A program made the position numbers and the translations under genes. Below are positions 25,285 through 41,929 of a DNA stretch of 64,000 nucleotides, one piece after another. This DNA is from a virus, in IMG/VR virus record IMGVR_UViG_3300038463_000730, positions 1 to 64,000 of that record, one strand, 5' to 3'. Below the pieces are notes generated by a model. The model searched no databases. It was given only the letters and a program-made list of their open reading frames with translations, and was not told the DNA's origin. Positions within the stretch are counted from its first letter, which is position 1, and each line of letters opens with the position of its first letter.

Positions 25285-26202
25285 ATGAAGTCCCTCCTAA
25301 AAGGCATGCCACCCGGAATCGTCGGGAAACCTATATTTGAAAACGGTCAGACTCGTTACAGGACAGCCGGGCCGGAGGGACCGGGATATTGGACCCGCAC
25401 GGAACAAGGCTATATGATCTGGGAAGGTGACCCGGCAAAACCTCAAGGAGAACTAAACCGAGCTAGTTTAGAAGACGCTCATCAGGAATTGATCCGGATG
25501 AAGCAACTACTTGATGAAAATTCTCCGCTTCCTCCTCTCCCGCCCATTCCACCGCTTCCAGTCTTGGATATGGATCCGATCCGGCCCACTCCTTACTTTG
25601 CGGAAGTTCTCCAGGCCAATCAGAATCGACTTAAAGAAGACCAGACGAACATGGAAAGGTTGGCTCGGAGCTATGAAAATTCTAGGCCTGAAATGAAATT
25701 GGAAGAAAACCCAAAACGTTTTTGCGAAACATGTTCGCAAGAATTACCAGTCTTGTTTACCGGTTCGTATCGAGATAATGCCAACCTGAATGCCAATCTG
25801 AATATTCGCGCAGTTAAAGAGTTAAAATCCATGTACCTGAAAAGTCTAGCACGAACCATCGGATTAACATTCCAGAAACGGATCATGATTCTCGGGCCAA
25901 ACGTTTGGTATTTTTTGATTGGGTTGTGGTTGTTGCTTCGTTGGGTATTTGTTCTCACGGTAGGAATTTGGTGCGCTGGAGATCTGGCGAACCAATTCTA
26001 CTTCCATTGGAACGTATCAGTATGGCATGAGGGAAACCTATCCATGCCGTATCTAGCTTGGTTTAGAACTTGGCTTCTTGGTTTGCCGGTTGTTGTTTTG
26101 TTCTTTGCCGGTTGGGGAATTTTCGGAGCCATTCATCATTTCGGGATGATGCATGTAAAATATCGGCACATCCAACTTCCGCCCGGACCGCCTCCCGGAT
26201 GA
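25285..26202 (+). CDS. two-span membrane protein with CxxC, 305 aa
   Basis: The N-terminal 80 residues are soluble; residues about 80-95 are a Pro/Leu linker (PLPPLPPIPPLP). A CETC pair lies near residue 148. Two hydrophobic spans sit at about 205-232 and 258-282, and the tail ends in QLPPGPPPG. Its stop overlaps the start of the first family A gene, so it may be co-translated with the array. No family recognised. Confidence 0.7.
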   Translation: MKSLLKGMPPGIVGKPIFENGQTRYRTAGPEGPGYWTRTEQGYMIWEGDPAKPQGELNRASLEDAHQELIRMKQLLDENSPLPPLPPIPPLPVLDMDPIRPTPYFAEVLQANQNRLKEDQTNMERLARSYENSRPEMKLEENPKRFCETCSQELPVLFTGSYRDNANLNANLNIRAVKELKSMYLKSLARTIGLTFQKRIMILGPNVWYFLIGLWLLLRWVFVLTVGIWCAGDLANQFYFHWNVSVWHEGNLSMPYLAWFRTWLLGLPVVVLFFAGWGIFGAIHHFGMMHVKYRHIQLPPGPPPG

Positions 26203-26639
26203 AGCCGGAACTTGACGAATGGGAAATTCCCGAGTCCGAACAGGTTAGACAATTGTTATCATTCCTTCAGTTTACCTCCGGTAAAAGTGCTCCAGTAATT
26301 AAGAAAATCGAGCGAGCCTTTTATTTACTAGGACATCGTATTCGATTCAACGAAGAAACCGTTCAAGCTAGTGGATGGTTCGGGTTTGAATTCGTTTGCG
26401 ATCGTTGTCATGTTTGGTTTTTCGTGCCGAGTTCGACATTGGAAAGTGACACGTTTAAAGGCAATAAGGTTTACTCCATCTATGCTTTGAATCGTTCGAT
26501 TCTTTCCGACGATCGTTCATTCGGCCCGCGAGTCTTTCGGGTTACGGATAAAGAAGAGGTCCTGACTCGTATTCCTCATCACAACATTGATTTCTTGAAA
26601 CCAAATTGGGTCTGTCATAAGTATCAGGTTATGGTATGA
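26199..26639 (+). CDS. family A protein, 146 aa
   Basis: First member of the array. LGH at residues 44-46, CDRC at 67-70, and C139 followed by seven residues to the end (CHKYQVMV). ATGA overlap with the upstream membrane protein. The one His and three Cys shared by the family could bind one metal; this is inference from conservation. Confidence 0.75.
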   Translation: MKPELDEWEIPESEQVRQLLSFLQFTSGKSAPVIKKIERAFYLLGHRIRFNEETVQASGWFGFEFVCDRCHVWFFVPSSTLESDTFKGNKVYSIYALNRSILSDDRSFGPRVFRVTDKEEVLTRIPHHNIDFLKPNWVCHKYQVMV

Positions 26640-26643
26640 TGGT

Positions 26644-26967
26644 ATGAGCGACGTTCCGATAAAAGTTCAGGAGCTATTCACAGCCAGATTACGAACCCTT
26701 GGTCATCGGGTCAACACATTCTATGAGTACGGTTATCATGATTTAATTGGTCAATGTTCTATTTGTTTGGCCAATTTTGCAATCGTACCGGGTGCCTCGA
26801 ATCGGCCCGGCATCCGTCATTTGTATTCTTTGCGCGAATTGCATCGACCTAGTTATCCTCGTTCTCTGGATATTTGGGGTTGTCGCGTTGAAGAAGGAAT
26901 CATAACCCGCGATATCAAGCTTCATTTCGCTCCATTGGTTTGTCCAAAGTTTGCGGCTTTTCTTTAG
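26644..26967 (+). CDS. family A protein, 107 aa
   Basis: LGH at 19-21, CSIC at 38-41, C100 seven residues from the end (CPKFAAFL). The gap from the CxxC to the tail is short. The next gene has AAGG just after this stop. Confidence 0.75.
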   Translation: MSDVPIKVQELFTARLRTLGHRVNTFYEYGYHDLIGQCSICLANFAIVPGASNRPGIRHLYSLRELHRPSYPRSLDIWGCRVEEGIITRDIKLHFAPLVCPKFAAFL

Positions 26968-26978
26968 ATAAGGTTCGG

Positions 26979-27218
26979 ATGCATCCCGAGTTCGTCATCT
27001 ATCGTCACGTCGGAGGAAAAAGTATCGTTCCGAAAGTTGAGCGGATCTTTCGTTTGCTCGGGCACCAAATCGAATGGAGTCCGTACATTCGTCATTTGCA
27101 TGTCGATGGTTACGATTTTCTTTGTAACCGGTGTTACGAGCGATTCTTTATGCCGAGTAAGAATTTCGCTCCTTTCTCGGTAGACATCGAGTATCCTCTT
27201 TATTTTGTTTGCGAATGA
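26979..27218 (+). CDS. family A protein, N-terminal part of a split member, 79 aa
   Basis: LGH at 27-29 and CNRC at 49-52 are present, but the frame stops (YFVCE) before the usual C-terminal cysteine tail. The missing tail is in the next frame, starting at an overlapping ATGA. Either a frameshifted member or two subunits. Confidence 0.65.
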   Translation: MHPEFVIYRHVGGKSIVPKVERIFRLLGHQIEWSPYIRHLHVDGYDFLCNRCYERFFMPSKNFAPFSVDIEYPLYFVCE

Positions 27219-27361
27219 AATGGTCTTTCGATATCGGTGACTTCAAACTTGGGAATTGGATGTTCCAGGTCACGGATTTTGTTGGAGAGGATCTGACTTG
27301 GGATGGTCTAGCTTTTCTTCGGCCTCAGTATCTTTGCAAACGGTTTCATGTTCTTCTTTGA
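27215..27361 (+). CDS. family A C-terminal part, 48 aa
   Basis: MKWSFDIGDFKLGNWMFQ... ending CKRFHVLL, the family tail with its cysteine eight residues from the end. Lacks LGH and CxxC, which are in the overlapping upstream gene. Together they make one normal-length member. Confidence 0.55.
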   Translation: MKWSFDIGDFKLGNWMFQVTDFVGEDLTWDGLAFLRPQYLCKRFHVLL

Positions 27362-27394
27362 CGATTGCGCCGGATTTACATTTATAACCAGATC

Positions 27395-27805
27395 ATGACT
27401 CCGGTTTTTCGCGCCTCTCAGATTGTTCTGGAGATCAACCGACATCTTCGAGTGTTTGGTCATCGGATTTCTCGTCTCGTAACCGATTCTGGAAAAGAGC
27501 TTGGAAGTCGTGGAGCACGGCGTTGGCGTCCCGGAACGGGCAGTCGCTTTGCCAATTGCGTTCATTGTCATGTTCGACTCGAAGCATTTTTGTTTCATTC
27601 CGGTTCTGGTGATGGAATTTCGAATATGTTTTGGGTTAGTAAAGTGGAGAAAGTTTATCGGCCCGGTGGATATATTACTCGATTCTTCCAGATAAAAGAA
27701 ACATCTTCCGGATTTGCTTTGGATGAACCGTATGCCAAATTACTAGAGCGACGTCAGAAGTATCCTGAGATATTGGTTTGTACCAGGATTGCTGCGTTCT
27801 TATGA
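27395..27805 (+). CDS. family A protein, 136 aa
   Basis: FGH at 21-23, CVHC at 55-58, C129 with the tail CTRIAAFL. An Arg/Gly-rich loop lies between the His and CxxC. A TTG 30 nt upstream is an alternative start. Confidence 0.7.
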   Translation: MTPVFRASQIVLEINRHLRVFGHRISRLVTDSGKELGSRGARRWRPGTGSRFANCVHCHVRLEAFLFHSGSGDGISNMFWVSKVEKVYRPGGYITRFFQIKETSSGFALDEPYAKLLERRQKYPEILVCTRIAAFL

Positions 27806-27817
27806 TCAGTACAATTC

Positions 27818-28018
27818 ATGTTAGGTCGAACACATCGCATACTGGTTAAGCATCGGCCCGAGTTGGACTCAATCCATTGGAGTTTATTTGTTTTCGGAAT
27901 CAAATGTTCGATAGCGATCTGTCGAGATCTGCTTAGTGTCTTCTCCTACCGGTACCGAGGTGATGCATGGCTCAAGATAGCGAAGAGGTTCTTGCGGCTC
28001 GATATCGGAGAGAAATAG
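27818..28018 (+). CDS. doubtful small protein, 66 aa
   Basis: Open frame MLGRTHRILVKHRPELDS... with no SD; overlaps the next, better supported gene by 52 nt. Kept because the space would otherwise be empty. Confidence 0.3.
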   Translation: MLGRTHRILVKHRPELDSIHWSLFVFGIKCSIAICRDLLSVFSYRYRGDAWLKIAKRFLRLDIGEK

Positions 28019-28179: not shown

Positions 28180-28198
28180 GGACCGAGGCGAAGCCAAG

Positions 28199-28490: not shown

Positions 28491-29108
28491 ATGATCGACG
28501 GGTTAACTTACATTCCCGGGTTCATCACGCCGGAGATCGAATCAGATCTGCTGACCGCGATCGATATGATGCCTTGGGATATGAGCTTGAAGCGTCGTAC
28601 CCAACATTATGGTTACCGTTACGATTACACTCAGAAGTCGATTGATCGATCTCAGTTTTTGGGTCCGTTTCCTTCTTCCTTTGATGATGTGGTCCGGTTA
28701 CTTAAACCGTACGGAACGTTTGATCAATGCATTATCAATGAATACATGCCTGGTCAAGGTATCGCGGCCCACGCCGATTGTATTCCGTGTTTCGGGCCAG
28801 TCATTTGTTCGGTTAGTCTCGGATCGACATGTACGATGGACTTTGCTAATTTTCGTAACGAGAAGCCTTACCGTCGAGCCGCGATCGAATCGTTGTTCCT
28901 CGATGCTCGTAGCTTGATCATTCTTGATGGTTCGGCTCGATACGATTGGACTCATGCCATTCCGGCTCGGAAGCACGACGAGATGATTGAGCGCGGTCGT
29001 CGGGTCTCGTTAACATTTCGCTCGGTCATACCCACGGTCATACCCACGGTCATACCCACGGTCATACCCACGGTCATACCCACGGTCATGCCTTCGGTAC
29101 AGAAATGA
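28491..29108 (+). CDS. AlkB-like 2OG-Fe(II) dioxygenase, 205 aa
   Basis: Iron-site residues in order: H94xD96 (AHAD), H155 (WTHAIP), and R-x-S-x-TFR around 170-177 for 2-oxoglutarate; N83-E84-Y85 matches the AlkB NxY motif. AlkB enzymes oxidatively remove alkyl groups from DNA or RNA; a base-modifying or host-interaction role is also possible. The C-terminus has five VIPT repeats from a perfect 12-bp DNA repeat, a tail not seen in AlkB. ATG at 28491 follows the upstream stop by 7 nt. Confidence 0.82.
   Translation: MIDGLTYIPGFITPEIESDLLTAIDMMPWDMSLKRRTQHYGYRYDYTQKSIDRSQFLGPFPSSFDDVVRLLKPYGTFDQCIINEYMPGQGIAAHADCIPCFGPVICSVSLGSTCTMDFANFRNEKPYRRAAIESLFLDARSLIILDGSARYDWTHAIPARKHDEMIERGRRVSLTFRSVIPTVIPTVIPTVIPTVIPTVMPSVQK
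29024..29095. repeat. 12-bp tandem repeat, five perfect copies plus a variant
   Basis: GGTCATACCCAC from 29024 to 29083, then a changed sixth copy. Encodes the VIPT repeats at the AlkB-like C-terminus. Confidence 0.95.
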
Positions 29109-29481: not shown

Positions 29482-29778
29482 ATGAGTAATCAAGCTACCA
29501 AACTCGCGACCGTTCTTCTAGAACGCCTCGGCCACAAACCATCAGCTTGGACCGTGACCTCGCTCGGGTTCGATATTACGACTTGTACCGTATGCGATGC
29601 GCCGTTTCTCGTCGATAGCCGTGGTACTAAGATCATTCTCTCAACAACCGGCTTAATGAGTATTAGTGGTTGGGAGAAGACTTATACATTTAAACCAGAA
29701 GACGTTACATACTTTATTCGCCAGGTTGCTCGCCGGTTTCCTTGGGCTTTTTGCTTGAAGTTTCAGGTTATGGTATGA
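29482..29778 (+). CDS. family A protein, 98 aa
   Basis: LGH at 16-18, CTVC at 35-38, C91 with tail CLKFQVMV. One of the shortest complete members. The tail codons CAG GTT lie just before the ATG of the next gene, which overlaps by ATGA. Confidence 0.75.
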   Translation: MSNQATKLATVLLERLGHKPSAWTVTSLGFDITTCTVCDAPFLVDSRGTKIILSTTGLMSISGWEKTYTFKPEDVTYFIRQVARRFPWAFCLKFQVMV

Positions 29779-30152
29779 AACGCGATTCGATCAGCTTCTT
29801 TATTGAGAGGGACTCGGATCCATCTCATCAGAAATATGCCGAGCAGTTCATCCGTTTACTCGGCCATCGAACCAGTCCGTGGATCCTGGAACGCGCTCAT
29901 CCGAACTATGGTTCGTATTCCGGTATGTATCATCTTACTCGTTGCGCTCATTGTGACATGTTGTTCGACGTCAAGATCTATCATGATTCGGCCGATGTAA
30001 ATGCTGCCGATGGCTTAATGATATATTGGCGTAAGCACGAATATTCTGGCGAGAACGATGCCGATTTGGTCACTCGAATCAATAAAACGGCCAAAATGAT
30101 GCGCCAGCACCGAACCCAAGTCATCTGCCCGAGATTAACGGTATTGCTATAG
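29775..30152 (+). CDS. family A protein, 125 aa
   Basis: LGH at 29-31, CAHC at 57-60, C118 with tail CPRLTVLL. ATGA overlap with the preceding member. Confidence 0.75.
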   Translation: MKRDSISFFIERDSDPSHQKYAEQFIRLLGHRTSPWILERAHPNYGSYSGMYHLTRCAHCDMLFDVKIYHDSADVNAADGLMIYWRKHEYSGENDADLVTRINKTAKMMRQHRTQVICPRLTVLL

Positions 30153-30164: not shown

Positions 30165-30575
30165 ATGAACATCAAGCCCGAAGCACTATTTAAGAAGTTT
30201 CTCGAACGAATGCAACACACATATTCGATTCAGAAGAAGAAACCGACATCAAAACCAAACATCCACTTTGATGATGCGGAACTTCGTTTCGAAGAGATCG
30301 TTCGTGCTCGGTGCCATACTTGTCTTCGTGAGTACCGCCTGCTACTTACGAAAGAGACCAACTATACCAAAGTAGGTAAGGTAGGTCACACGTACGAAAT
30401 CCGTGTCAACGGTAATAAACAAGACAATGTATCGTACAACCGTTTGTTGTTTGGATTCGAGGGAGAGTTCGTCGATAACGAGATCATCATCCCGGAAGAT
30501 TGGTTTACTTCGGCTTACAAGATTGCGATGGAAAAGAAGCTATCTACCTGTACTAAATTCGATGTGATGAAATGA
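30165..30575 (+). CDS. divergent family A protein, 136 aa
   Basis: CHTC at 50-53 and C129 with tail CTKFDVMK are kept; LGH is replaced by MQH at 16-18, keeping the His. A Lys-rich insert follows. Confidence 0.68.
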   Translation: MNIKPEALFKKFLERMQHTYSIQKKKPTSKPNIHFDDAELRFEEIVRARCHTCLREYRLLLTKETNYTKVGKVGHTYEIRVNGNKQDNVSYNRLLFGFEGEFVDNEIIIPEDWFTSAYKIAMEKKLSTCTKFDVMK

Positions 30576-31030
30576 GAAAACCGACTCATCTTCAAGAACT
30601 TCGCGCTTGGGCTCACGAACGAGCTAGATTGATCGGGCATTCAATAACTATTCCGAACCGATATTCTTTTGAGCCCGGAAGGCATCTTGGTTATTTAAGT
30701 TCTTGCGCTCATTGTCCACAGAAGTTTGTATTGTGTTTGGAACGGCGCCAACTTCAAAAAGACATATCCTATTCCGGCAAGTTCTCGCTTGAGACCGGTC
30801 ATCTCCTGTACCTGACCGATCAATATACCGAGGTTAGGAATGTCACGGGTTACCTTCGATCGATCTTTGGGCAAGAACTAAACAAGAAACGTTTCTCCGA
30901 TCTGCCGAGCTACTTTCATATCATCGGTGTCCACTGCTATCATTTGGATCGAACCATATCGATGGATGAACCGATGAAGAAACCGAGGACGAAGAAGTTC
31001 TTGTGTCCTCGGTTGAAGACGTTTTTATGA
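30572..31030 (+). CDS. family A protein, 152 aa
   Basis: IGH at 21-23, CAHC at 45-48, C145 with tail CPRLKTFL. Extra His/Cys-containing segment near residues 110-120. Overlaps both neighbours by 4 nt. Confidence 0.75.
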   Translation: MRKPTHLQELRAWAHERARLIGHSITIPNRYSFEPGRHLGYLSSCAHCPQKFVLCLERRQLQKDISYSGKFSLETGHLLYLTDQYTEVRNVTGYLRSIFGQELNKKRFSDLPSYFHIIGVHCYHLDRTISMDEPMKKPRTKKFLCPRLKTFL

Positions 31031-31500
31031 AAAACTACCCTGAGTCATTTTCTCATTATCCATGGTACATGGCATTCGAATACATCATCAACATGATGCG
31101 AATTGCGTGCCATCATCGGATGCAAATAGACGATACACCGCTTGTACGCACGATCGGAACCGACCAAGCATTTCTTGCCAATTGCATTGCTTGTGAAGCA
31201 ACGTTTATTATTATGTATCGCGCTTATTCTGGTGGAGCGGCTTCCATATGGGTTATGCAAACAATGGATTACGAAACTTTACAAACCAAAACTGATGTAA
31301 ACTTGATGTCTATTAACGGAATAACCGATATACGTAACGCATTCGGCACAGATGTCGTGAATAGTCTGCCGAATCCATTAGATGGACATTGGGTTGTTCC
31401 GGTAATGGTTCTTTACCAAGATGGTCTGGTTATTACACGACGAGAGCAAGATTATACGGACCAGATCAACTGGTGTTCGAGATTCAAATCATTCTGGTAA
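31027..31500 (+). CDS. family A protein, 157 aa
   Basis: CIAC at 53-56 and C150 with tail CSRFKSFW; the His motif is degenerate (CHH at 28-30). ATGA start overlap. Confidence 0.7.
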   Translation: MKNYPESFSHYPWYMAFEYIINMMRIACHHRMQIDDTPLVRTIGTDQAFLANCIACEATFIIMYRAYSGGAASIWVMQTMDYETLQTKTDVNLMSINGITDIRNAFGTDVVNSLPNPLDGHWVVPVMVLYQDGLVITRREQDYTDQINWCSRFKSFW

Positions 31501-31589: not shown

Positions 31590-31880
31590 ATGTCATATTC
31601 CTACACAAATTCCGTTATACCGAGCAAGTCACGGCGTTATGCTTTGCCTTGGGAGTTGAAAAACGGTCAATATATCCGCAGACTTTTTGCCGGAGAGACC
31701 GAATTAACTCCAATTATTTTGACGTTTGATTCTTTCCGTTGTTCATGGACGAGTCGCCCCGAATCCGCCTATTACGTTGGAATGTGTACCAGTCTTGAAG
31801 GAGCCAAATCAACGGCCGAGCGGCGTTTGAAGAAAATGGGGTTCCTATTCATAAGCAAACGTTTGGTTTGTATGTTGTGA
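31590..31880 (+). CDS. family B protein (Pro-Trp type), 96 aa
   Basis: RRYALPWEL near residues 15-23, a CSWTS core, then a helix (AKSTAERRLKKMGF) and tail KRLVCML. Shares the N-terminal PW and the C-terminal helix-G-strand with six other genes. The tail resembles the family A tail without its fixed cysteine. Confidence 0.68.
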   Translation: MSYSYTNSVIPSKSRRYALPWELKNGQYIRRLFAGETELTPIILTFDSFRCSWTSRPESAYYVGMCTSLEGAKSTAERRLKKMGFLFISKRLVCML

Positions 31881-31895
31881 TGACGTGAGGATCTG

Positions 31896-32084
31896 ATGTA
31901 CCGTTATCGCCAAATTGAAAACGTCGTTCCAACCGAACTTGAAAACTTACTGAATAAAGAAGCAAAGGATGGCTGGGAACTTGCCAGTACGTACAATATC
32001 ATGCAACGTGACCCGTGGTCTCACTACCACAATAAATTGAATGTCGTTCTGCGCCGTGATCGACGGTTAGATTCATTCGGATGA
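31896..32084 (+). CDS. DUF4177-like protein, 62 aa
   Basis: GAGG before ATG. MYRYRQIENVVPTELENLLN, then EAKDGWELAS and a final strand with LNVVLRRD: the DUF4177 layout (Y at start, LN..., GWEL). Function unknown. Overlaps the next gene by 4 nt. Confidence 0.7.
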   Translation: MYRYRQIENVVPTELENLLNKEAKDGWELASTYNIMQRDPWSHYHNKLNVVLRRDRRLDSFG

Positions 32085-32404
32085 AGAACAGAGTTGCTTA
32101 TCCATGGGTAACCAATCCAATACCTTTGTTGCGCATGATTGTTATGTATCGTGACCTTTATTGCAATTGGCATGAAGAACCAGTTCATAAGTTTGCCACG
32201 ATAGCTATCTACTATGAAGAAGCGGGTACGTTCATTATCGAAGGTCCGATCGAACAATTTATTCACGGAGAAGAGAAGAATCTTTTCGGCCAATATATCC
32301 CGGAATCCGAGATGACGTGGGACGTTGGCAAAGCATACGTTGACCGATATCTCGTATTGAACGGATTTCGCCTGGTAGATCAACGAGCCGCAATCTTCGG
32401 ATGA
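32081..32404 (+). CDS. family B protein, 107 aa
   Basis: NRVAYPWVT at residues 3-11, CNWHEEP core near 28, then GKAYVDRYLVLNGFRL and an end (AAIFG) without the common tail. Longest spacer between PW and the C-terminal helix. Confidence 0.65.
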   Translation: MKNRVAYPWVTNPIPLLRMIVMYRDLYCNWHEEPVHKFATIAIYYEEAGTFIIEGPIEQFIHGEEKNLFGQYIPESEMTWDVGKAYVDRYLVLNGFRLVDQRAAIFG

Positions 32405-32436
32405 CGACCGGCGCTTCCTGACTTCCATCGAGTCTG

Positions 32437-33042
32437 ATGATCAAAGAAGGAACCCGAATCACAGACGATCAGCCCCGAACACCGCTCATCGGTCAGTACA
32501 AGCTTCGCCAGGATGTCGTTCGTGTCTCAAAACGAATCGTGCGTCGTCTTGGGCATCTCATGCCGAAAGGAGCATGGCTCGAAACCTTCTCCTATCCTGG
32601 CTCGAAACTAACGGCGCGGTGTCGTCATTGTTCTCGCATTTTCGTTCTCTCGGGGCGCCCCGATGTCGGGCAAGGTAAGTGGAAGGTCGCGCCACAGTAC
32701 ACGACATCCGACGAACCAGGATTCATTGCGCGCTTCGAGCTTGACCCGTGGATTATGTTTGAAGTTATTTCAAACGCGGCAGAGATCGAGACGTCAACGG
32801 CGTTTCAAAGCGGTCGCGCGGCAACTTCTTCCGAACGGATCACGGATGTTGGCCCGAGGGATTGGGAACTGAACGCTTTTCAGCGCAGTTTTCATACGCT
32901 CGTGCAATTAGCAGGCGGAACACCTCCAACGTTCGAGGACGAATCTCTTGACGAAGAGACGAAGGAAGCTCGGCTCATTGAAAAGAAGCTCAAACCAATC
33001 GATAAACGTTTTTACTGCGCGAAGGTAAAGACCTGGTTGTAG
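32437..33042 (+). CDS. family A protein, 201 aa
   Basis: LGH at 38-40, CRHC at 62-65, C194 with tail CAKVKTWL. The largest single-domain member: an extra 70-residue acidic helical insert sits between the CxxC and the tail. Confidence 0.75.
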   Translation: MIKEGTRITDDQPRTPLIGQYKLRQDVVRVSKRIVRRLGHLMPKGAWLETFSYPGSKLTARCRHCSRIFVLSGRPDVGQGKWKVAPQYTTSDEPGFIARFELDPWIMFEVISNAAEIETSTAFQSGRAATSSERITDVGPRDWELNAFQRSFHTLVQLAGGTPPTFEDESLDEETKEARLIEKKLKPIDKRFYCAKVKTWL

Positions 33043-33082
33043 TCGGAAGTCGAGAGTCCGGTTGGGGAATCGTCTACTCGGG

Positions 33083-33478
33083 ATGATCGATGACTCGAAT
33101 GAGAGTGCTTATCGCTCGTACATGTTGCTGACGCATTTGGTTCTGCGTGTCATGGGCCATCGAATCGGTCCGTTCGCAAAACTTCGGGATGGAACCAGCA
33201 CACCGGGCGAGGGGCTCGTAGTCACGGATGAAGCGAAGTGTTCCGCTTGTGGCCGTTATTTTCGAGCGACCATGACAAACCGAACGTATTTTCAGATTCG
33301 CATTTCTCACGTTCATAACAATGTCATGTATTCGCCTCGCTCGTTCTACTTCGTAGCCAGCTTTGAGCCAACCAGCCGGGAATTGCTCGATGCACCGGTC
33401 AGCCATGTTCGTCGGTTCTTAGCAGCGGAGTCAAACTACAAGGAATCTATCTGTACACGTTTTAAGGTGATGGCTTAA
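33083..33478 (+). CDS. family A protein, 131 aa
   Basis: MGH at 24-26, CSAC at 53-56, C124 with tail CTRFKVMA. A TTG 21 nt upstream is an alternative start. Confidence 0.72.
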   Translation: MIDDSNESAYRSYMLLTHLVLRVMGHRIGPFAKLRDGTSTPGEGLVVTDEAKCSACGRYFRATMTNRTYFQIRISHVHNNVMYSPRSFYFVASFEPTSRELLDAPVSHVRRFLAAESNYKESICTRFKVMA

Positions 33479-33497
33479 AAAAGGTTCGGGCATTATT

Positions 33498-33809: not shown

Positions 33810-34096
33810 ATCGTAAGACTGCTTTCCCTTGGCGTAAAGTGTTTGCTGTTTCGGAAGTCTATGCCAGGTTCGATCCGAAAGGCGTTAAGATTGCGCAGAT
33901 CATCGTTCGAAAAAGTGACGATGGTTCGTTCGCAATCTGGAATATCCTGGCGACCGAGATGATCGACGGTGATGCGATCACCGGGCGTTGCGAGACGTTG
34001 GACTACGCATTCGAATTAGTGGATGACACGTTAGAGATGCACGGCTGGACTCTTCTTTGCACGGATATGAAGTCGGAAACAGCAATCCGTTTGTAG
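33806..34096 (+). CDS. family B protein, 96 aa
   Basis: RKTAFPWRK at 3-11, a SFAIWNI core near residue 43, helix YAFELVDDTLEMHGW, end without the full tail. Overlaps the previous member by ATGA. Confidence 0.65.
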   Translation: MNRKTAFPWRKVFAVSEVYARFDPKGVKIAQIIVRKSDDGSFAIWNILATEMIDGDAITGRCETLDYAFELVDDTLEMHGWTLLCTDMKSETAIRL

Positions 34097-34097
34097 C

Positions 34098-34442
34098 ATG
34101 ATTACTCGGTATGTACTTCCTTGGACCGCCATTCCGAAGGCTCTACGAGCCCCGGATTATCGGTACTATTACTCACGAACAATCGTTTCCCCAACCATTC
34201 CGTATGGCATGGGGTTGTCTGCTGGTTCGGTTCATCTTCTTAATGGGAAATACAAAGGACAATGTGGTCCGAATGATTGGCAATGGGCCGTATGGAACTG
34301 GCAAGAGGAACCTCTTCGGCATTCAGTTGATTCATGGTCTGGAGTCGGTTGCACGGAAGAACAAGCTCGTCGTTATGTAGATAAAAAGCTACGTAAGCTT
34401 GGATTCAAATTCGTTACAAAAAAGTGTTTGGTGTTCCTATGA
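34098..34442 (+). CDS. family B protein, 114 aa
   Basis: TRYVLPWTA at the N-terminus, WQWAVWNWQEE core near 62-72, helix EEQARRYVDKKLRKLGF, tail KKCLVFL. The Trp-rich core strand is clearest here. Overlaps the next gene by 4 nt. Confidence 0.68.
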   Translation: MITRYVLPWTAIPKALRAPDYRYYYSRTIVSPTIPYGMGLSAGSVHLLNGKYKGQCGPNDWQWAVWNWQEEPLRHSVDSWSGVGCTEEQARRYVDKKLRKLGFKFVTKKCLVFL

Positions 34443-34891
34443 GCGAAGCTGCAACCAAACGCCCGGATGAAAACGACATCCTACGAATCGTACATAATAC
34501 CATTACAGGAGCTATTCGTCGGATTGGTCACCAGCTCGCCGAAAACAAATGGAAAGAAGGACCGGTCATTTACGGATATCATCACGGTCATGCGTGGTGG
34601 CAGGATTGTGCCCGTAAATGTAAATGGCGATTCGCAATCGAGAAACAGCTTGATATTGCCGGTCGCACCCGTTTCGATATACGAGCGGTCGTCGTTCATA
34701 ACGAGAATCCGTTCATGCAAGAGATCCTGGAAAGCCACTCGCTATTTGAAATCGTTCTAGGACCGGACTTGAACCTCATCGGAGATTACACAAAACAGAA
34801 CGTCATCATTCCACTAGACGAGAACGTGATGAGAACGTTTGTTCTCGGCAGTAAAGATTGTCTATGCAGTCGTTTAACAAATTTCATCTAG
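34439..34891 (+). CDS. family A protein, 150 aa
   Basis: IGH at 29-31; cysteines at 57 and 61 are spaced CxxxC rather than CxxC; C143 with tail CSRLTNFI. Three His residues near 48-51 precede the Cys pair. Confidence 0.72.
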   Translation: MSEAATKRPDENDILRIVHNTITGAIRRIGHQLAENKWKEGPVIYGYHHGHAWWQDCARKCKWRFAIEKQLDIAGRTRFDIRAVVVHNENPFMQEILESHSLFEIVLGPDLNLIGDYTKQNVIIPLDENVMRTFVLGSKDCLCSRLTNFI

Positions 34892-35265
34892 AGTTCCCGC
34901 TCGTCACGGATGAAATCGTTGCGAAGGCGACGCTTATCCTGACCATGCTAGGACACAAAATTGATGAAACGTCATGGGAGATCGAATCATACGGCCACAC
35001 GTTTAAAGCAGCGGCTCCACGAGTGCGTTGCTTGATTCAGAACTGCACTCACGTTTTTGGATTGATGGAAATGAGGTTTCCACGAAGTGTCAAACTGATT
35101 CGATACTTTGAACTAAACAGTGATAAAATACCAGACATACTTCTACTTATTCCAGGTCCGAGCGTTTCGCTAGATCAACTTCGAGCTACGGTAAAAACGC
35201 ACCCTGACTTTAATACTAGAGAAGTAGAACAAGCTTATTGTGTTCGGTACCGGAACCTGAGATGA
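34864..35265 (+). CDS. family A protein, 133 aa
   Basis: LGH at 29-31, cysteines 56 and 61 (CxxxxC), C126 with tail CVRYRNLR. Overlaps the previous member by 28 nt; TTG at 34858 is an alternative start. Confidence 0.7.
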   Translation: MQSFNKFHLEFPLVTDEIVAKATLILTMLGHKIDETSWEIESYGHTFKAAAPRVRCLIQNCTHVFGLMEMRFPRSVKLIRYFELNSDKIPDILLLIPGPSVSLDQLRATVKTHPDFNTREVEQAYCVRYRNLR

Positions 35266-35540
35266 ACCGTGACCTGAGCAAAATGTTGTTTCCTTGGCAA
35301 CAGCTTCCACGTCATCGGCACGCCAACTACTCTGCTCGTTACGTTAGACGCGATCGTTACGGTGAAAATATCGCTTGGATTTGGTTAAGATCGGACAGGA
35401 AGGACTGGTTATGGGAAATCTCATCAACGGGCTTAACGGGTTTCGATATGGACTTGCAGGTAGCGATGACGAAAGTGAATATCTTGCTGATCTCCGCAGG
35501 GTATACGGAACTACCAAACCGACTAAAGGTTCTCCTATAA
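35262..35540 (+). CDS. family B protein, 92 aa
   Basis: SKMLFPWQQ at 6-14, IAWIWL and WLWEIS strands, C-terminal helix and tail NRLKVLL. ATGA overlap with the upstream family A gene. Confidence 0.67.
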   Translation: MNRDLSKMLFPWQQLPRHRHANYSARYVRRDRYGENIAWIWLRSDRKDWLWEISSTGLTGFDMDLQVAMTKVNILLISAGYTELPNRLKVLL

Positions 35541-35551
35541 TTCGGATCGCC

Positions 35552-35857
35552 ATGCCATGGCATCGCGACTATTGGGAGAATGGTTGGCCAGCACCGAGTC
35601 AACCGTGCAACGATAAACGAGTTCGTATGATGTCGATGCGGATGAATCCGGAACGATACATGCTCGGAACGATTGTTCAGAACCTCGGGCAGAAAGATTT
35701 CTCTTGGGAAGTTAACAGTCAGGTATTGACGGAGAATATACTAGACGAATGGAAAGGACGATGCCGTTCCGAACTCGACGCCACTTTAACGGTCGAACGT
35801 ATTCTCCGAGAGAATTGCTTCAAACTACTAGAAGAGAAGCACTTGTTACTAGGATGA
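35552..35857 (+). CDS. family B protein, 101 aa
   Basis: Starts MPWHRDYW. Other members have two to six residues before PW; here the codons before ATG read IIRIA in frame, so a non-ATG start upstream is possible. FSWEVNS core, C-terminal helix, end EEKHLLLG. Confidence 0.6.
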   Translation: MPWHRDYWENGWPAPSQPCNDKRVRMMSMRMNPERYMLGTIVQNLGQKDFSWEVNSQVLTENILDEWKGRCRSELDATLTVERILRENCFKLLEEKHLLLG

Positions 35858-36642
35858 AACCTGTCAGCACAAAGATGTCTCGAATCCAAGATCAGCTGAC
35901 CATTCTCAAAGAATGGAGAGCGTTCGAGTTCTTTGGCATTCGATTGATGGATAAACTTGCTCACGACATCTATCCGATGGAAGTGAAGCTTGAAGCTCGT
36001 CCAACCGACATCAATGCTTACACCGAATGTAGGCGTTGTCTCAAGAGCTTTCGCTTCCGTCTTATGCAAATGGCGAATGGTGACAAGTTCTGGCGACTGA
36101 CTGGCCGAGCCACAACTAATTCTCATCATTCATACGAACTACCTTGTTACGATCTTGACTATGATAGTCCGCAAGCCGGGATCGAGCTGTTAAGCGACAT
36201 CGATGACAACGGATTGTTCTGTTCAGAGGTTCGTGAATGTCACATCGATCGTAAAGAGTTCAAGAAGAAGCTCTATAAACTTGCGAAACTATCCTCTAAA
36301 TACTTCGAGCATTGTTTTTTGCATAAGGCTACGTTCAAACGGATCGTAGCCGGTTACATGACTCAAGGTGACATCACGTACACTCGGGCCCGAACTGCCG
36401 CGTTCGAGGGTCGATGCCGCGTTTGTAACATGACCTTCGGTATTCGTGTGGATGATCAGATTCACACATTCTTTCTTGGTGGGCCGAGCGGTAAATCGAT
36501 TCTGATTGAGAAAGCCGATGTACTAAATGTTGACGATTGGCTGGTCGATGCATCAAAACGCATAAGAAATGAAACGAACATCACCTTCAAAAACCAAGAC
36601 TATGCTCATTTCGCCTGTACTCGTCTCGAAATTCTTAAGTGA
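35854..36642 (+). CDS. double-length family A fusion, 262 aa
   Basis: Two family A units in one frame. Unit 1: a His-containing segment, CRRC near 56, and a tail-like CSEVREC near 123. Unit 2: a segment with FLHK, CRVC near 191, and a final tail CTRLEILK with Cys eight residues from the end. No stop separates them. The fusion supports a dimeric or multi-unit assembly for the family, by inference. Confidence 0.65.
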   Translation: MKPVSTKMSRIQDQLTILKEWRAFEFFGIRLMDKLAHDIYPMEVKLEARPTDINAYTECRRCLKSFRFRLMQMANGDKFWRLTGRATTNSHHSYELPCYDLDYDSPQAGIELLSDIDDNGLFCSEVRECHIDRKEFKKKLYKLAKLSSKYFEHCFLHKATFKRIVAGYMTQGDITYTRARTAAFEGRCRVCNMTFGIRVDDQIHTFFLGGPSGKSILIEKADVLNVDDWLVDASKRIRNETNITFKNQDYAHFACTRLEILK

Positions 36643-37075
36643 TCCAGATGAACCCGATTACTACAAAGCGGCTCGGATCGTTGCCAACTTAATGAAGCAT
36701 GACTTGGCTGAAAAGAATCCTTGGAAGAAACTGCAAGGGGAATACGGAACAGTCGTGGATGGCCACTGCCAATGCCTCTACCCAACGTGTCAACGGCATC
36801 TCTTTGTTTGCAAGGTGAATCTCCCGATCGATCCGACCTTCCTTAATAAACTAGGAATCATCGAGGAGAAAACAACCCACGCCTACTATCTCATTCAGCA
36901 GCATGAAGGACGGGAACAGACACTCTGCACGCTCGGCTACGGTCGCACGGATCGCCGGTATGCTAAATACCGACAGTATCATGCGTACGTATCGATCCCC
37001 AGGTTGTTAGCTGGTAAACAAATCATTCAAACTGACGATAAGTACTTGTGCGGTAGATTTAACATTCTCCGGTGA
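36602..37075 (+). CDS. family A protein, 157 aa
   Basis: MKH at 31-33 replaces LGH; cysteines at 56, 58 and 63 (CQC, then PTC); C150 with tail CGRFNILR. The start overlaps the upstream gene by 41 nt and has no SD, so it is tentative. Confidence 0.62.
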   Translation: MLISPVLVSKFLSDPDEPDYYKAARIVANLMKHDLAEKNPWKKLQGEYGTVVDGHCQCLYPTCQRHLFVCKVNLPIDPTFLNKLGIIEEKTTHAYYLIQQHEGREQTLCTLGYGRTDRRYAKYRQYHAYVSIPRLLAGKQIIQTDDKYLCGRFNILR

Positions 37076-37078: not shown

Positions 37079-37426
37079 ATGTCAGATTTTGACTTGGTAT
37101 TTCGAGACTCGATGTCGTTTATCAAACGATTGGGTCATCGTATCCCGCTCGGAGAATGGCGGGACATACGTGGTGGCACATTAGGATGGTGCTCGGCCTG
37201 TGAACGCGGATTCATGTTCAAACGTATTCCGGTAGAACAATTCATACTATTTGAGTGTACCGATTCGTACAATCATGGTGCATCTGCTGCGATAGCTTAT
37301 TGGTCCAGCAAATTACATTCTTTTCAAAAAGGTTACTACAAGATATTTAAAATTGGTGACCCCGTTGATTTCGTTTCTGCTACTCATACCAAATTCATGT
37401 GCTCCAGACTACGGGTAATGATGTAA
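37079..37426 (+). CDS. family A protein, 115 aa
   Basis: LGH at 18-20, CSAC at 38-41, C108 with tail CSRLRVMM. The final codons GGTAATGATG lie against the next start (TAATG). Confidence 0.75.
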   Translation: MSDFDLVFRDSMSFIKRLGHRIPLGEWRDIRGGTLGWCSACERGFMFKRIPVEQFILFECTDSYNHGASAAIAYWSSKLHSFQKGYYKIFKIGDPVDFVSATHTKFMCSRLRVMM

Positions 37427-37755
37427 TGCACCTAGAATATTTCTCTGCGTTCCTTCGTCATCTCGGTCATGAACTGGCTGACTGGAGAATGATCGAGTCC
37501 AAATATTGGAAAGAGTTCCATACCTATTGTCCGAAAGTTGGTTGTGGCAAAATGTTCAAGATCCACAACCACTCTAGTCAATGGACAATGGATCGAATCA
37601 TGGTTAATCAATACGGCCATGACCGTGAAGAGAAAGTTATGGATTTCCATGATCGTGAACTGAGCGCATGGAATGGTGAGCCGCTTAATTATCATCGGGA
37701 GAAAGCTACCATATACAAGCAACATCTGTGTTCGAAAGTGAAGGCTTTTCTATGA
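37426..37755 (+). CDS. family A protein, 109 aa
   Basis: LGH at 13-15, cysteines 35 and 40, C102 with tail CSKVKAFL. Coupled to both neighbours by overlapping stop/start. Confidence 0.73.
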   Translation: MHLEYFSAFLRHLGHELADWRMIESKYWKEFHTYCPKVGCGKMFKIHNHSSQWTMDRIMVNQYGHDREEKVMDFHDRELSAWNGEPLNYHREKATIYKQHLCSKVKAFL

Positions 37756-38069
37756 GTTTCTATCACAACAAACGAGTTATCCTGATCACAACCAAACTAC
37801 TCCAGCATTTCGGCCATGAGCTTGACCCGGTCAACTGGCAGCCTGGGGAGGACTCGGATCTGGTCAACGCTTGCACGAATATGGAGTGTCGGAATCGGTT
37901 TACTTTGTTCACACCTTTTCCACACAACTACTCGGCCGATCGTATCTGGCGTATGATGAACATCGAATCATTCGAAGGCTTCCACTTCAATGAGAGCATG
38001 GAGTATCAGGAAGTAAAGAATCGTGTATTGCGCATTCGTAATAAGAACCTGTATTGTGGCTGTCACTAA
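37752..38069 (+). CDS. family A protein with shortened tail, 105 aa
   Basis: FGH at 20-22, CTNMEC at 41-46, then ends LYCGCH: the tail cysteine is present but the usual seven following residues are lost, probably by an indel near 38055. The only member of the array ending this way. Confidence 0.65.
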   Translation: MSFYHNKRVILITTKLLQHFGHELDPVNWQPGEDSDLVNACTNMECRNRFTLFTPFPHNYSADRIWRMMNIESFEGFHFNESMEYQEVKNRVLRIRNKNLYCGCH

Positions 38070-38398
38070 TGGCCCGTTCTTTGTACCATAGGAAAGCTGA
38101 ATCTGGCTTGCGTACCCTAGGTCATAAGATCGAGGTACGTGAGGTCATCCCGACTCTCAACGAATTGAACGCGCGAGCCGTGTTTACCGACTATGTGGTA
38201 AAACTGTGGGTATGTTTAAAATGCAAAAAAGTATTCATGCTACACAAAACGCCCAGCTCGCAGTACGTTACCAAGCACGTTGAACAATTCTACTCAACAT
38301 TCATGTTTACTGTCCTGCGTGGCGAGGTGTATGGTCAGACCTTCCTAAACAAGGTTGACAGGTATTTCATATGCGACCGACTGAAGAATCTAGCGTAG
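38069..38398 (+). CDS. family A protein, 109 aa
   Basis: LGH at 17-19, CLKC at 49-52, C102 with tail CDRLKNLA. The ATG overlaps the previous TAA by one base (TAATG). Confidence 0.73.
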   Translation: MARSLYHRKAESGLRTLGHKIEVREVIPTLNELNARAVFTDYVVKLWVCLKCKKVFMLHKTPSSQYVTKHVEQFYSTFMFTVLRGEVYGQTFLNKVDRYFICDRLKNLA

Positions 38399-38772
38399 AA
38401 GAGTCCGGCATAAGAGAAGCTGAAATCGTCAGCTTCAATCTGGACTGGAGCATTTGCGAATCGAACGTGGCGAAGATTCTTACGAGCTGGGGTCACCAGA
38501 TCGACGAGCAATCCTGGGTCAAAAACAAAGCCGATGAAGGCCGATTAATTTGGTGCTCGAACGAATCTTGTCGAAAACTTTTCCAGGTCACTTTAATCGG
38601 TGGCACAAACATCGCCTGGAACATCGGACAGCTTATCGTGAAGGAAGATGAAGAGCATCTTTATCGACGCGGAATCATCATCTTGTTCAACGACATTTAC
38701 TACAATGTCAGCCACTTAAAACGGGGAGTTAAACCCGAATTCTTTTGTTCTCGGTACATTAACTTCAGGTGA
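38371..38772 (+). CDS. family A protein, 133 aa
   Basis: WGH at 40-42, cysteines 62 and 67, C126 with tail CSRYINFR. Acidic N-terminal extension of 25 residues. Followed by a 63-nt gap, so its tail is not needed as a coupled SD. Confidence 0.72.
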   Translation: MRPTEESSVEESGIREAEIVSFNLDWSICESNVAKILTSWGHQIDEQSWVKNKADEGRLIWCSNESCRKLFQVTLIGGTNIAWNIGQLIVKEDEEHLYRRGIIILFNDIYYNVSHLKRGVKPEFFCSRYINFR

Positions 38773-39267: not shown

Positions 39268-39533
39268 TGGACGAGTGCCCTCTATGTGGGTCGTGCGTTC
39301 CGTCGCTGTGTGATTGCTCGGCAACCCTGAAACAAATTCACAACGATCTAGTCGAGATCAATCGGCGAATCGAAAGTGAACGACCTCGGAATACACCGAT
39401 CACGATCCTTCCAGTCCCGGATAAGAAAATCAAATACTCACCCGACCTCAGAACTCCTGCGGAACCAACCTCGAAACTAGCTCAGTTCTTTAGACGTATA
39501 AAGGATTGGTTTCGTGGTATATGGTCGTGGTGA
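39267..39533 (+). CDS. N-terminal zinc-knuckle protein, 88 aa
   Basis: MDECPLCGSCVPSLCDCS: four or five cysteines in 17 residues, a probable zinc knuckle. A helix follows, and a basic aromatic tail (FFRRIKDWFRGIWSW) that could touch membrane. Starts one base into the upstream TAA. Confidence 0.65.
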   Translation: MDECPLCGSCVPSLCDCSATLKQIHNDLVEINRRIESERPRNTPITILPVPDKKIKYSPDLRTPAEPTSKLAQFFRRIKDWFRGIWSW

Positions 39534-39904
39534 CATTAGCAGCAATTCAAGCGCCAATAATCAAACGAGCCGTTCGAGTCTTCCAGCACTTCGGTCATCA
39601 TTTCGATCTTCAGCGGGTCAAACTAAAACCAAACTTCCGTCCTATCTCTCGCTTTCCTGACCCGAACATCAATCTAGCTGTCGGACCGAACAAAGGACAG
39701 AAAGTCTATTGCGCAGGGTACGCTTCGGTTTGTACGGTGTGCAGCGTTAATCTAGGCATGCAAGAAAGCCCATTCGAACATGAGTGGGCTTTTTCAATTA
39801 ACGAGTTGGTACTTCGGGATTACTCAGAAGACGAGCAGCTAAACACCGAACTACACCGTAGATACCCAGGTCTGGTTTGTCCCCGTCTTAGGAATTTCTT
39901 ATGA
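39521..39904 (+). CDS. family A protein, 127 aa
   Basis: FGH at 24-26, CTVC at 71-74 with an extra Cys at 64, C120 with tail CPRLRNFL. Start ATG at 39521 or a nearby GTG. Confidence 0.72.
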   Translation: MVVVTLAAIQAPIIKRAVRVFQHFGHHFDLQRVKLKPNFRPISRFPDPNINLAVGPNKGQKVYCAGYASVCTVCSVNLGMQESPFEHEWAFSINELVLRDYSEDEQLNTELHRRYPGLVCPRLRNFL

Positions 39905-40284
39905 TCGTCAACACCGAGCAACAAGCCAAACTTCACAAAGTTGTCAGTGATTGTGTTACGGCTTTCGACTTCATTGACCATTCGTTCCCATTTAGACTTC
40001 TACGGCAAGCATCGATGGTAGCAGCCCACATTCCTGAGGTCAAAGAATATCCTCGAACAACTACAACACGATTCGTTGGTTATTGCCGAAACTGTTCTAT
40101 TGAAATAATGTTAACTGTCGGATCATTCCCAATGCGTACGTACACTCACTATGATTTGTTTTTCAATCGAGAACGGTCTTTCAATCTCGTTCTAGACCGC
40201 ACGTTCATTAAAGACCTGGGGTTTCGTACACACTCGAATGGTTTCACAATACCGATTTGCAAAAAGTTCGAGGCTTTCGTATGA
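39901..40284 (+). CDS. family A protein, 127 aa
   Basis: IDH at 25-27 replaces LGH; CRNC at 62-65; C120 with tail CKKFEAFV. ATGA overlap with the upstream member. Confidence 0.72.
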   Translation: MIVNTEQQAKLHKVVSDCVTAFDFIDHSFPFRLLRQASMVAAHIPEVKEYPRTTTTRFVGYCRNCSIEIMLTVGSFPMRTYTHYDLFFNRERSFNLVLDRTFIKDLGFRTHSNGFTIPICKKFEAFV

Positions 40285-40619
40285 GAACGAAGATTCAGAT
40301 TGAACTGGAGACGTTAGCCCGAGCCATGAGTAAACGTTTTCTACACAAATTCTGGGGCAAAGAATACATCGGCTTAATCAAACGAGTCAAAGGGTACTGT
40401 AGTCACTGCGGCATTCAAATTCTATTGGTCAAAGGAAAGGGTGCCGAGCATTCGTTATTCCTTGGGACACGACACTTTCGCGTGGGCAATGAGCGGTTCG
40501 CTTCATCCGGAACTTATCCTAGCTTGATCGTTTCAAAAATGCTGATCATGCCATCAGATCCGATATCGAGAGAATTGCTTCTTGAGCACGGCTGTAAAAA
40601 GTTCGTAGCTTTACTATGA
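40281..40619 (+). CDS. family A protein, 112 aa
   Basis: FLH at 20-22 replaces LGH; CSHC at 40-43; C105 with tail CKKFVALL. Basic (pI clearly high by composition). ATGA overlap upstream. Confidence 0.72.
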   Translation: MRTKIQIELETLARAMSKRFLHKFWGKEYIGLIKRVKGYCSHCGIQILLVKGKGAEHSLFLGTRHFRVGNERFASSGTYPSLIVSKMLIMPSDPISRELLLEHGCKKFVALL

Positions 40620-40634
40620 CGAGAGATCCGGGTC

Positions 40635-40991
40635 ATGACAGCTGTAATTGGAATGGCGGAATTGAACCTGGAAACAAAGCAAACATTTGAGGAGCTGGTC
40701 CAGATTGCCCGTCCCTACGTTCGTAAATTAGGCCACACGATTGGCGAGTGGGAGCTTGGGCCTCGACCTCACATCAGCTTCCACATCTTCACAATTTGCA
40801 AAGCGTGCAAGAAGAAAATCAAATGCCAGAAGTGCCTTGTCGTTGGGACTGAAGACGAGATCACGTATCGCTGGGAGATTATCGTTGGTAACTACATAAG
40901 TGTCTCGTTGAGCCGTGAAGCCGAACTAGTCGAAAACATTAAAGACACGTGGGAACGATGTCTCTGTACTAGACTATCGGTGATGCTGTAA
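40635..40991 (+). CDS. family A protein, 118 aa
   Basis: LGH at 32-34, CKAC at 55-58 plus a further CQKC at 64-67, C111 with tail CTRLSVML. The extra CxxC could form a second half-site. Confidence 0.74.
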   Translation: MTAVIGMAELNLETKQTFEELVQIARPYVRKLGHTIGEWELGPRPHISFHIFTICKACKKKIKCQKCLVVGTEDEITYRWEIIVGNYISVSLSREAELVENIKDTWERCLCTRLSVML

Positions 40992-40992
40992 C

Positions 40993-41319
40993 ATGAAATA
41001 TCTTACGGAAGATAAACTACAGGTCATCCACACTGGCCTCCGAAAGATGGGACATCGCATCGATTGGAAATCTCCAGATGAACCGGTGTTCAATCTAAAT
41101 GGGGAACTGATCCTGGTCGGAACATGCCAGAATTGTCATCAACTGCTTGAATGTTTTTATTCTGGAATGAGTTCGGTCTGTAACGTCTACGTTGACAAGG
41201 TTCGAACGATATACATTTCGAAAAAGGGTGACGTTCGAATAAGTGGGATGAATGGGATGAAATATTACCCCGTGAGTTACGGCTCGATTCAATGCCCGAA
41301 GCTTGTTGTCATGCTTTAG
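40993..41319 (+). CDS. family A protein, 108 aa
   Basis: MGH at 19-21, CQNC at 45-48, C101 with tail CPKLVVML. Confidence 0.74.
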   Translation: MKYLTEDKLQVIHTGLRKMGHRIDWKSPDEPVFNLNGELILVGTCQNCHQLLECFYSGMSSVCNVYVDKVRTIYISKKGDVRISGMNGMKYYPVSYGSIQCPKLVVML

Positions 41320-41327
41320 GATAATCT

Positions 41328-41606
41328 TTGGCAAATCCACAGACTCAATCAATCGCCAGCATTTTCGCAGCGATAAAAAAGAAAACGGGGCATAAAGTCG
41401 ATAGGCTCGATAATGAATTCGTTCGCGGTTGGCTCGTTTATACGGCCAGGTGTCGATACTGCAATTCAGAAATTGAGCTTTACACAGAGGGAAATCTAGT
41501 CGCGATCAATAAATTCATTGCCGGTTCGTTTGAAAACAATCGATGGCGAATCAATCCATTGGTCACGAAGATGCTCTTGTGTAAAAGATTGAAGGTGATG
41601 TTGTGA
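41328..41606 (+). CDS. family A protein, 92 aa, TTG start
   Basis: The shortest complete member: TGH at 20-22, CRYC at 42-45, C85 with tail CKRLKVML. TTG start chosen because AGGA lies 6 nt upstream and there is no ATG before the His motif. Confidence 0.72.
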   Translation: MANPQTQSIASIFAAIKKKTGHKVDRLDNEFVRGWLVYTARCRYCNSEIELYTEGNLVAINKFIAGSFENNRWRINPLVTKMLLCKRLKVML

Positions 41607-41929
41607 TGCCGCTGATCATTTGGCCGTTGATTCCAAAGCCTGTCCCATCCGGGACAATCGAACAAAAGACCGAGTGGTTTTTAGCAATGCTTTGCGAGGT
41701 CCGCCGCCGTGCAGGACATCGCTGGGCACCTCTAAAGGAGGGAGCCTTTGACGTGCCGAGGGTCATTTGCCTCTACACATTCTGCCTCTCGTGTGGCATA
41801 TACATTCACATGTACCCGGAGGAACCACACCTTTACTTCCAGAATGGAACTGGAGGCTTACAGTTCGGTTTTGACATCCCAGACGGTTGGAAACCAAAGG
41901 TTTGCGACAAGCTGGCGTCATTCGTTTAG
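41606..41929 (+). CDS. family A protein, 107 aa
   Basis: Last member of the array. AGH at 36-38, CLSC at 60-63, C100 with tail CDKLASFV. The start follows AAGGTG, which is embedded in the previous gene's last codons. Confidence 0.73.
   Translation: MPLIIWPLIPKPVPSGTIEQKTEWFLAMLCEVRRRAGHRWAPLKEGAFDVPRVICLYTFCLSCGIYIHMYPEEPHLYFQNGTGGLQFGFDIPDGWKPKVCDKLASFV

Follow-up and report, generated by a model that had tools for sequence, protein, structure and literature searches.

A Portable C-Terminal Tag on a Duplicated Protein Family and on Unrelated Small Proteins of an Uncultured Large Phage

Introduction

The DNA analyzed here (the window) is the first 64 kb of the 434,688-bp record of an uncultured phage, IMGVR_UViG_3300038463_000730 (genome G000). 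From position 26199 to 41929, this window contains an array of genes for small paralogous proteins, designated family A, that with a single exception end in a cysteine followed by exactly seven residues. In this report, we demonstrate that the last six of these residues are a tag found genome-wide, whereas only the cysteine is specific to family A. More than one-tenth of the genes of this phage carry the tag. The record was found to encode a terminase, a portal, a head maturation protease, and the alpha subunit of DNA polymerase III. A total of 547 genes were called with a simple codon-usage caller, by which some of the array genes were split or missed; the tails are little affected by such errors because they depend on stop codons alone. 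The related phage records that were used for comparison are incomplete contigs.

Results

The original prediction placed about 27 paralogues in the 15.7 kb of the array, and this number is far beyond chance. Among the plus-strand stop-to-stop frames of at least 60 amino acids between 26.0 and 41.95 kb, 26 of 57 terminate in Cys-x7-stop, compared with 1 of 46 minus-strand frames from the same region and 13 of 370 frames elsewhere in the window. A hidden Markov model (HMM) was constructed from an alignment of 28 domains, and the members scored with E values of 1e-5 to 1e-20 in the whole genome. The alignment of the motifs is therefore not accidental. The count of 27 loci stands, although they are now resolved into 25 single genes, one two-domain fusion, and one gene split by a frameshift. 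The motif order that had been proposed was found in all of the 27 loci: GH or H, then a CxxC-type pair, and then the last cysteine. The invariant columns are Met1, the histidine, both cysteines of the CxxC-type pair, and the last cysteine. The Cys-x7 end is present in all loci but one (37752-38069, which ends in CGCH). Identity among the paralogues is only ~10-25%. The proposal of a family grown by duplication whose bodies have strongly diverged is supported.

The array genes are all encoded on the plus strand and, unless stated otherwise, were assigned with the 28-domain alignment and the family HMM; the last eight residues are given in parentheses. The gene at 26199-26639 (146 amino acids, CHKYQVMV; HMM and alignment) is followed by that at 26644-26967 (107 amino acids, CPKFAAFL) and then by the split gene. 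The N-terminal half of the latter, with GH and CxxC, is found at 26979-27218 (HMM E = 1e-4), and the C-terminal half is found in another frame at 27161-27361 with its tail intact (CKRFHVLL). The split in 26979-27361, with the tag preserved in the second frame, could have arisen by a recent frameshift or by an error in sequencing; programmed frameshifting is a further possibility. The following members are located at 27395-27805 (CTRIAAFL), 29482-29778 (CLKFQVMV), 29775-30152 (CPRLTVLL), 30165-30575 (CTKFDVMK), 30572-31030 (CPRLKTFL), 31027-31500 (CSRFKSFW), 32437-33042 (201 amino acids, CAKVKTWL), 33083-33478 (CTRFKVMA), 34439-34891 (CSRLTNFI), and 34864-35265 (CVRYRNLR). The fusion is found at 35854-36642 (262 amino acids, CTRLEILK), and both of its domains are matched by the HMM. 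It is followed by genes at 36569-37075 (CGRFNILR), 37079-37426 (CSRLRVMM), and 37426-37755 (CSKVKAFL), and by the untagged member at 37752-38069 (HMM E = 1e-16). The remaining genes of the array are located at 38069-38398 (CDRLKNLA), 38371-38772 (CSRYINFR), 39521-39904 (CPRLRNFL), 39901-40284 (CKKFEAFV), 40281-40619 (CKKFVALL), 40635-40991 (CTRLSVML), 40993-41319 (CPKLVVML), 41328-41606 (92 amino acids, CKRLKVML), and 41606-41929 (CDKLASFV). The residues encoded from 40653 onward in the gene at 40635-40991 were used as the structure query.

Beyond the array, one more member is found in the window on the plus strand (59970-60347, tail CRRLQVML, HMM E = 2e-17), and eight are scattered on the minus strand at approximately 92.8, 93.2, 286, 320, 362, 378.5, 378.8, and 381.6 kb. 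With a refined HMM, 36 family A loci were counted in the genome.

The AlphaFold model of family A, determined with the 26 window members, has a mean predicted local distance difference test (pLDDT) score of 84.9 and a predicted template modeling (pTM) score of 0.74. It consists of a helix (residues 6-25), four strands (42-49, 55-64, 70-78, and 81-87), and two further helices (97-103 and 106-111). This single confident model agrees with the expectation of one common fold for the array members. No match was obtained with Foldseek at E ≤ 0.001 in either the PDB or BFVD. The positions of H28, C49, C52, and C105, at the end of the first helix, in the hairpin, and at the start of the last helix, would fit one metal site. 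Such a site had also been proposed originally; the His, Cys, Cys, and Cys residues are indeed invariant, while zinc as the bound metal is a prediction from their conservation. Zinc would anchor the two ends of the domain on the sheet, and the remaining surface would be free to diverge.

No described family was found that corresponds to family A. In Pfam and PHROGs, no family matches more than one member, and the weak matches to single members are at best ~8e-4. PADLOC provided no match, and the best E value against the sequences of PDB chains was 0.21. No relative was detected in viral contigs, in the phages collection, or in 36 terminase-related or otherwise linked phage records, and the DNA of the array has no nucleotide relatives in the phages collection. 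A search of GTDB genomes returned one match of 31 residues, which was taken as chance. The original prediction that matches would be confined to this phage group was thus borne out, in fact for this one phage only. Family A consists of small proteins of one domain that have multiplied by duplication within a single lineage.

Seven genes of a second family, together with other genes, are interspersed in the array. This second family, family B, has ~18 genes with a PW motif near the N-terminus and lacks the last cysteine of family A, and its members end in the same tag as those of family A. Family B was located by a genome HMM search at 31590-35857, 270 kb, 332 kb, and 369-376 kb. The assignments within the array, all on the plus strand, were made with the HMM and alignments. 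The genes are found at 31590-31880 (PW motif, tag KRLVCML), 32081-32404 (weak tag QRAAIFG), 33498-33809 (ERLQVMK), 33806-34096 (degenerate tail ETAIRL), 34098-34442 (KKCLVFL), 35262-35540 (NRLKVLL, used as the structure query), and 35552-35857 (EKHLLLG). A small open reading frame at 31896-32084 (RRLDSFG) is a doubtful relative that was included in the family B alignment. The AlphaFold fold of family B (pLDDT 88.2) differs from that of family A, and the pLDDT of its tail is ~64-81. Foldseek provided no match for this model in the PDB at E ≤ 0.001.

The last cysteine and the seven residues after it were originally taken as one feature. They are now separated into the cysteine of family A and a tag that is also carried by unrelated proteins. 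A position-specific scoring matrix (PSSM) of six positions was trained on 52 tails from families A and B. Position -6 is Arg or Lys in 52 of 52 tails; position -5 is Leu, Phe, Tyr, His, or Val; and position -4 is any residue. Position -3 is Val, Ala, Ile, Asn, or Ser; position -2 is Met, Phe, or Leu; and position -1 is Leu, Lys, Val, Ala, or Arg, followed directly by the carboxy terminus. At p ≤ 3e-3, 61 of the 547 genes pass, compared with 1.6 expected from internal windows. Among these, 31 belong to neither A nor B (1.5 expected) and fall into 29 groups by blastp; 30 of the 31 are independent since the tail of 31896-32084 was in the training set. A regular expression for the tag was matched 17 times at the exact protein end and 0-3 times when shifted. 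Enrichment of C-terminal lysine is general to all these phages, and more weight is therefore given to the shifted and other-genome controls than to the internal null.

Several genes of the array overlap the next start codon (...TTATGA), with their last codons partly shared, and the conserved ends could be read as a by-product at the DNA level, arising from ATGA stop/start overlaps or from a recombination site. The codons argue otherwise. The Lys or Arg at position -6 is encoded by AAG, AAA, CGT, CGA, CGG, CGC, AGA, and AGG, the Leu at position -5 is encoded by all six of its codons, and the Lys/Arg and Leu/Phe/Tyr/His positions use codons of all kinds. Tagged genes located outside the array lie no closer to their neighbors than other genes do (a gap of ≤15 nucleotides to the next gene in 13 of 38 versus 180 of 450), and no common DNA repeat was detected at the gene ends. 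The stop/start overlaps do not explain the tag because of this codon diversity, the spacing, and the lack of a repeat. The DNA by-product explanation is in the main refuted by the codon diversity and is extremely improbable. We are nearly certain that the tag is real, acts at the level of the protein, and is portable.

The portability of the tag is apparent from proteins in which it is missing. The bodies of the proteins encoded at 319691-319999 and 320029-320397 align to gp254 of Microbacterium phage A3Wally and to a protein of Bacillus phage Goe8, and these homologues stop before the tag. Likewise, the homologue of 404021-404509 in the related phage G008 (39% identity) ends ~10 residues sooner, just before the tag position. 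In the fusion at 35854-36642, the inner domain keeps its last cysteine (GLFCSEV) without a tag, which is found only at the true C-terminus. The untagged inner domain and the untagged homologues thus identify the cysteine as a feature of the domain and the tag as a feature of the terminus.

Loss of the tag within the fusion and its position at the very end would also suit a degradation or stability signal that is recognized by an AAA+ protease of the host or phage and confers a timed half-life. Classical protease tags, as in ssrA and the end of MuA, are short signals at the C-terminus that finish in hydrophobic residues. However, ssrA ends in LAA and MuA ends in RRKKAI, and the tag consensus matches neither. 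It is also difficult to explain a need for such a signal in dozens of small proteins but in almost none of the large ones, and this explanation is regarded as improbable.

A further alternative is that the tail completes each fold, with the likeness among tails resulting from convergence or from undetected common ancestry of a C-terminal subdomain. The confident helix of the family A tail is in favor of this, as are the paralogues 106238 and 106941, which share their C-terminal 45 residues; some tags have thus spread within a domain. Against it, the folds of A and B differ, the tail of B is modeled with lower confidence, homologues of two tagged groups are without the tag, and the tag is spread over 29 separate groups in addition to A and B. 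Completion of the fold is given little credence.

Three unrelated tagged proteins are encoded on the plus strand in the rest of the window: one of 203 amino acids at 43432-44043 (tag ERLQTWL, PSSM p = 2e-4), one with a hydrophobic N-terminus at 46775-47308 (AKLLVML, p = 1e-5), and one with an N-terminal CPKC at 47311-47733 (KKLGIMR, p = 8e-4). Searches of Pfam and PHROGs left all tagged proteins outside the two families as orphans, apart from 319691/320029, for which the matches were to PHROGs without an assigned function; the same is true of one protein in the related phage G004. Tagged proteins are small (median 108 amino acids), and only 4 of the 174 genes of at least 210 amino acids are tagged. 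Between 108 and 267 kb, where the structural and core replication genes are found, there is one tagged gene only, a weak one at 232 kb. The tagged genes are inserts among core genes, and the structural genes and replication enzymes are untagged. No description of such a tag was found in the open-access subset of the literature.

A terminase search led to a clade of uncultured phages, the majority of them with 50-77% identity. Patterns for the tag were fixed on G000, G004, G006, and G008 before new records were tested. The fixed patterns were found 7 times in G005, compared with 0.1 expected, and the PSSM identified 7 tails in G011, compared with 0.4 expected. One pattern, picked after viewing these genomes, was observed 6 times in G004 (0.3 expected), 6 times in G008 (0.1 expected), and 3 times in G006 (0.1 expected). 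The tag was not seen in G017, G014, G003, G013, G018, a 50-kb stretch of T4, or 41 kb of LR756508. G011 and G013 both have family B, the ends of which are tag-like (KHLAFL, RIKLFT, and NKLRILL), and neither has family A. The consensus of the tag drifts among these phages, from ...VML or ...AFL in G000 to KLKAFL in G008.

The genome also encodes a tubulin-family protein of 451 amino acids (G000:C1:107363-108718; Pfam Tubulin, E = 2.6e-16), and its gene is highly conserved in G004, G005, G006, and G017. The gene in G004 (G004:C1:34305-37076) is a single frame of 923 amino acids, twice the usual size; the extra length is perhaps an insertion such as an intein.

Other features of the record were noted. 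Within the array, the gene at 28491-29108 encodes an AlkB-like 2-oxoglutarate-Fe(II) oxygenase (Pfam E = 1.5e-22). In the part of this gene for the C-terminus, consecutive 12-nucleotide repeats encode VIPT. On the minus strand at 49274-50591 there are five tandem paralogues of 87-89 amino acids, all of which end in L-x-GH-x-[ML]-E, an ending found nowhere else in the genome or in the relatives examined. Near 24 kb of the window, the G+C content falls from ~0.55 to 0.46, and coding that is mostly on the minus strand gives way to coding on the plus strand. The match to the head maturation protease domain is near the N-terminus of a protein of 1140 amino acids (190695-194117), which is possibly a protease-scaffold fusion. 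The record also encodes EF-Tu (all three domains; 390926-392089), trigger factor (N and C domains; 229815-231146), NAMPT, an SPFH/Band 7 protein, an NAD-dependent ligase, and topoisomerase I.

Discussion

The tag is carried by ~60 small accessory proteins, and its occurrence in ~30 unrelated groups would be explained by a common receptor. Selection by a shared receptor would be expected to yield a short, portable, terminal, and drifting motif of this kind on otherwise unrelated small proteins, and we consider it likely that one docking or sorting receptor serves the tagged proteins. The destination that we favor is the assembling phage head, where the tagged proteins would be packaged and from which they would later be injected, in the way that the capsid targeting sequence serves the internal proteins of T4. 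The injected proteins could then disarm or reprogram the host, and their diversification would be directed against many hosts or defenses. The complete proposal, from the family and the tag to a single receptor, packaging in the head, and injection, is tentative, and we place it somewhat on the doubtful side.

A number of observations weigh against this proposal. None of the results ties the tag directly to heads, and no receptor was found: a comparison of gene sharing between tagged and untagged relatives, which are incomplete, leaves 17 genes, mostly structural or metabolic-looking and none convincing. A search for k-mers and promoter motifs upstream of the tagged genes provided nothing clear as to early or late expression. 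Proteins packed with DNA might be expected to be basic, but the difference in median charge between the tagged proteins and other small proteins is not significant. The capsid targeting sequence of T4 is N-terminal and is removed by the head protease, and a search for an N-terminal packaging motif like that of head genes showed no clear enrichment (24 observed, 17 expected). The tail of family A is confidently helical in the model and may belong to the fold, and the zinc site is predicted from residue conservation alone.

The same tag could instead dock small takeover proteins to one intracellular hub of the host or the phage, with nothing being packaged. Candidate hubs are RNA polymerase, the ribosome, the replisome, the membrane, or a cytoskeletal element. 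The tagged genes are small, often overlapping or close, of unassigned function, and outside of the structural module, and small, closely spaced genes without known function are typical of early takeover genes. The shift of the consensus between phages is also as expected if the tag were following a changing receptor. Two tagged paralogues are found directly downstream of the phage tubulin gene, at a site that differs among relatives. However, the tubulin gene is also present in the untagged G017, and in G005 no adjoining gene passes the tag test. The sliding clamp is disfavored as the hub by the Lys or Arg in place of the Gln of the clamp motif QLxLF, by the lack of a clamp gene according to the Pfam DNA_pol3_beta models, and by the presence of a canonical QLSLF in one phage protein. 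No hub was identified, and this alternative is judged somewhat less probable than packaging. Packaging in the head is favored over an intracellular hub because the internal proteins of T4 are the closest worked-out case.

More broadly, this clade of very large phages may use an evolvable C-terminal tag as a general address for new genes, with a receptor and destination of a type that has not been described for phages; on acquiring about six terminal residues, a new gene would join a set of accessory proteins that are delivered or co-localized; we regard the chances of this as almost, if not quite, evenly balanced. The functions of most genes in jumbo phages are unknown, and the tag provides a way to select, from sequence only, proteins with a shared destination, including those in related phages. 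Should the tagged proteins go to the virion, this phage would carry an unusually large arsenal of injected, probably anti-defense, proteins, and the tag would offer a portable means of loading proteins into large phage heads. Should they go to an intracellular hub, that hub could be identified by a simple pull-down. In either case, the joint role of these orphan proteins becomes directly testable.

The tag can be compared with four known systems. The clamp motif QLxLF has a similar hydrophobic spacing and is sometimes C-terminal, but its Gln is replaced by Lys or Arg in 52 of the 52 tails of the PSSM. In the Chimalliviridae, no conserved signal sequence was found for nuclear import by PicA, and a recognition surface was proposed (PMC11087766). 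That system resembles the present one as an example of selective sorting in jumbo phages, and the phage described here also has a tubulin gene. A nuclear import of this type is unlikely here, since no linear signal was found in the Chimalliviridae, whereas this phage has a clear linear tag and its replication enzymes are untagged.

Short C-terminal peptides also load unrelated cargo proteins into the HK97-fold shell of encapsulins, with a targeting peptide that is reported to contain a conserved TVGSL motif (PMC8346489). The tag consensus is unlike TVGSL, and encapsulins are cellular compartments with few types of cargo per shell. No encapsulin turned up in this phage, although none was looked for.

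In T4, the only feature common to the diverse internal proteins is a capsid targeting sequence, and a restriction enzyme is defeated by at least one of these proteins (PMC3012670, PMC9391042). The internal protein IPIII enables the infection of one strain of E. coli (PMC9391042), and IPI* is described as having beta sheets with a flanking helix at either terminus (PMC3012670, PMC9391042). The order of these elements is the same as in the family A model, with no match in sequence or by Foldseek (PDB). The tag described here differs from the T4 signal in being C-terminal, six residues long, and present on ~60 proteins rather than on a few, and packaging is in this case what we infer. In both phages, however, diverse small proteins have one short terminal signal in common.

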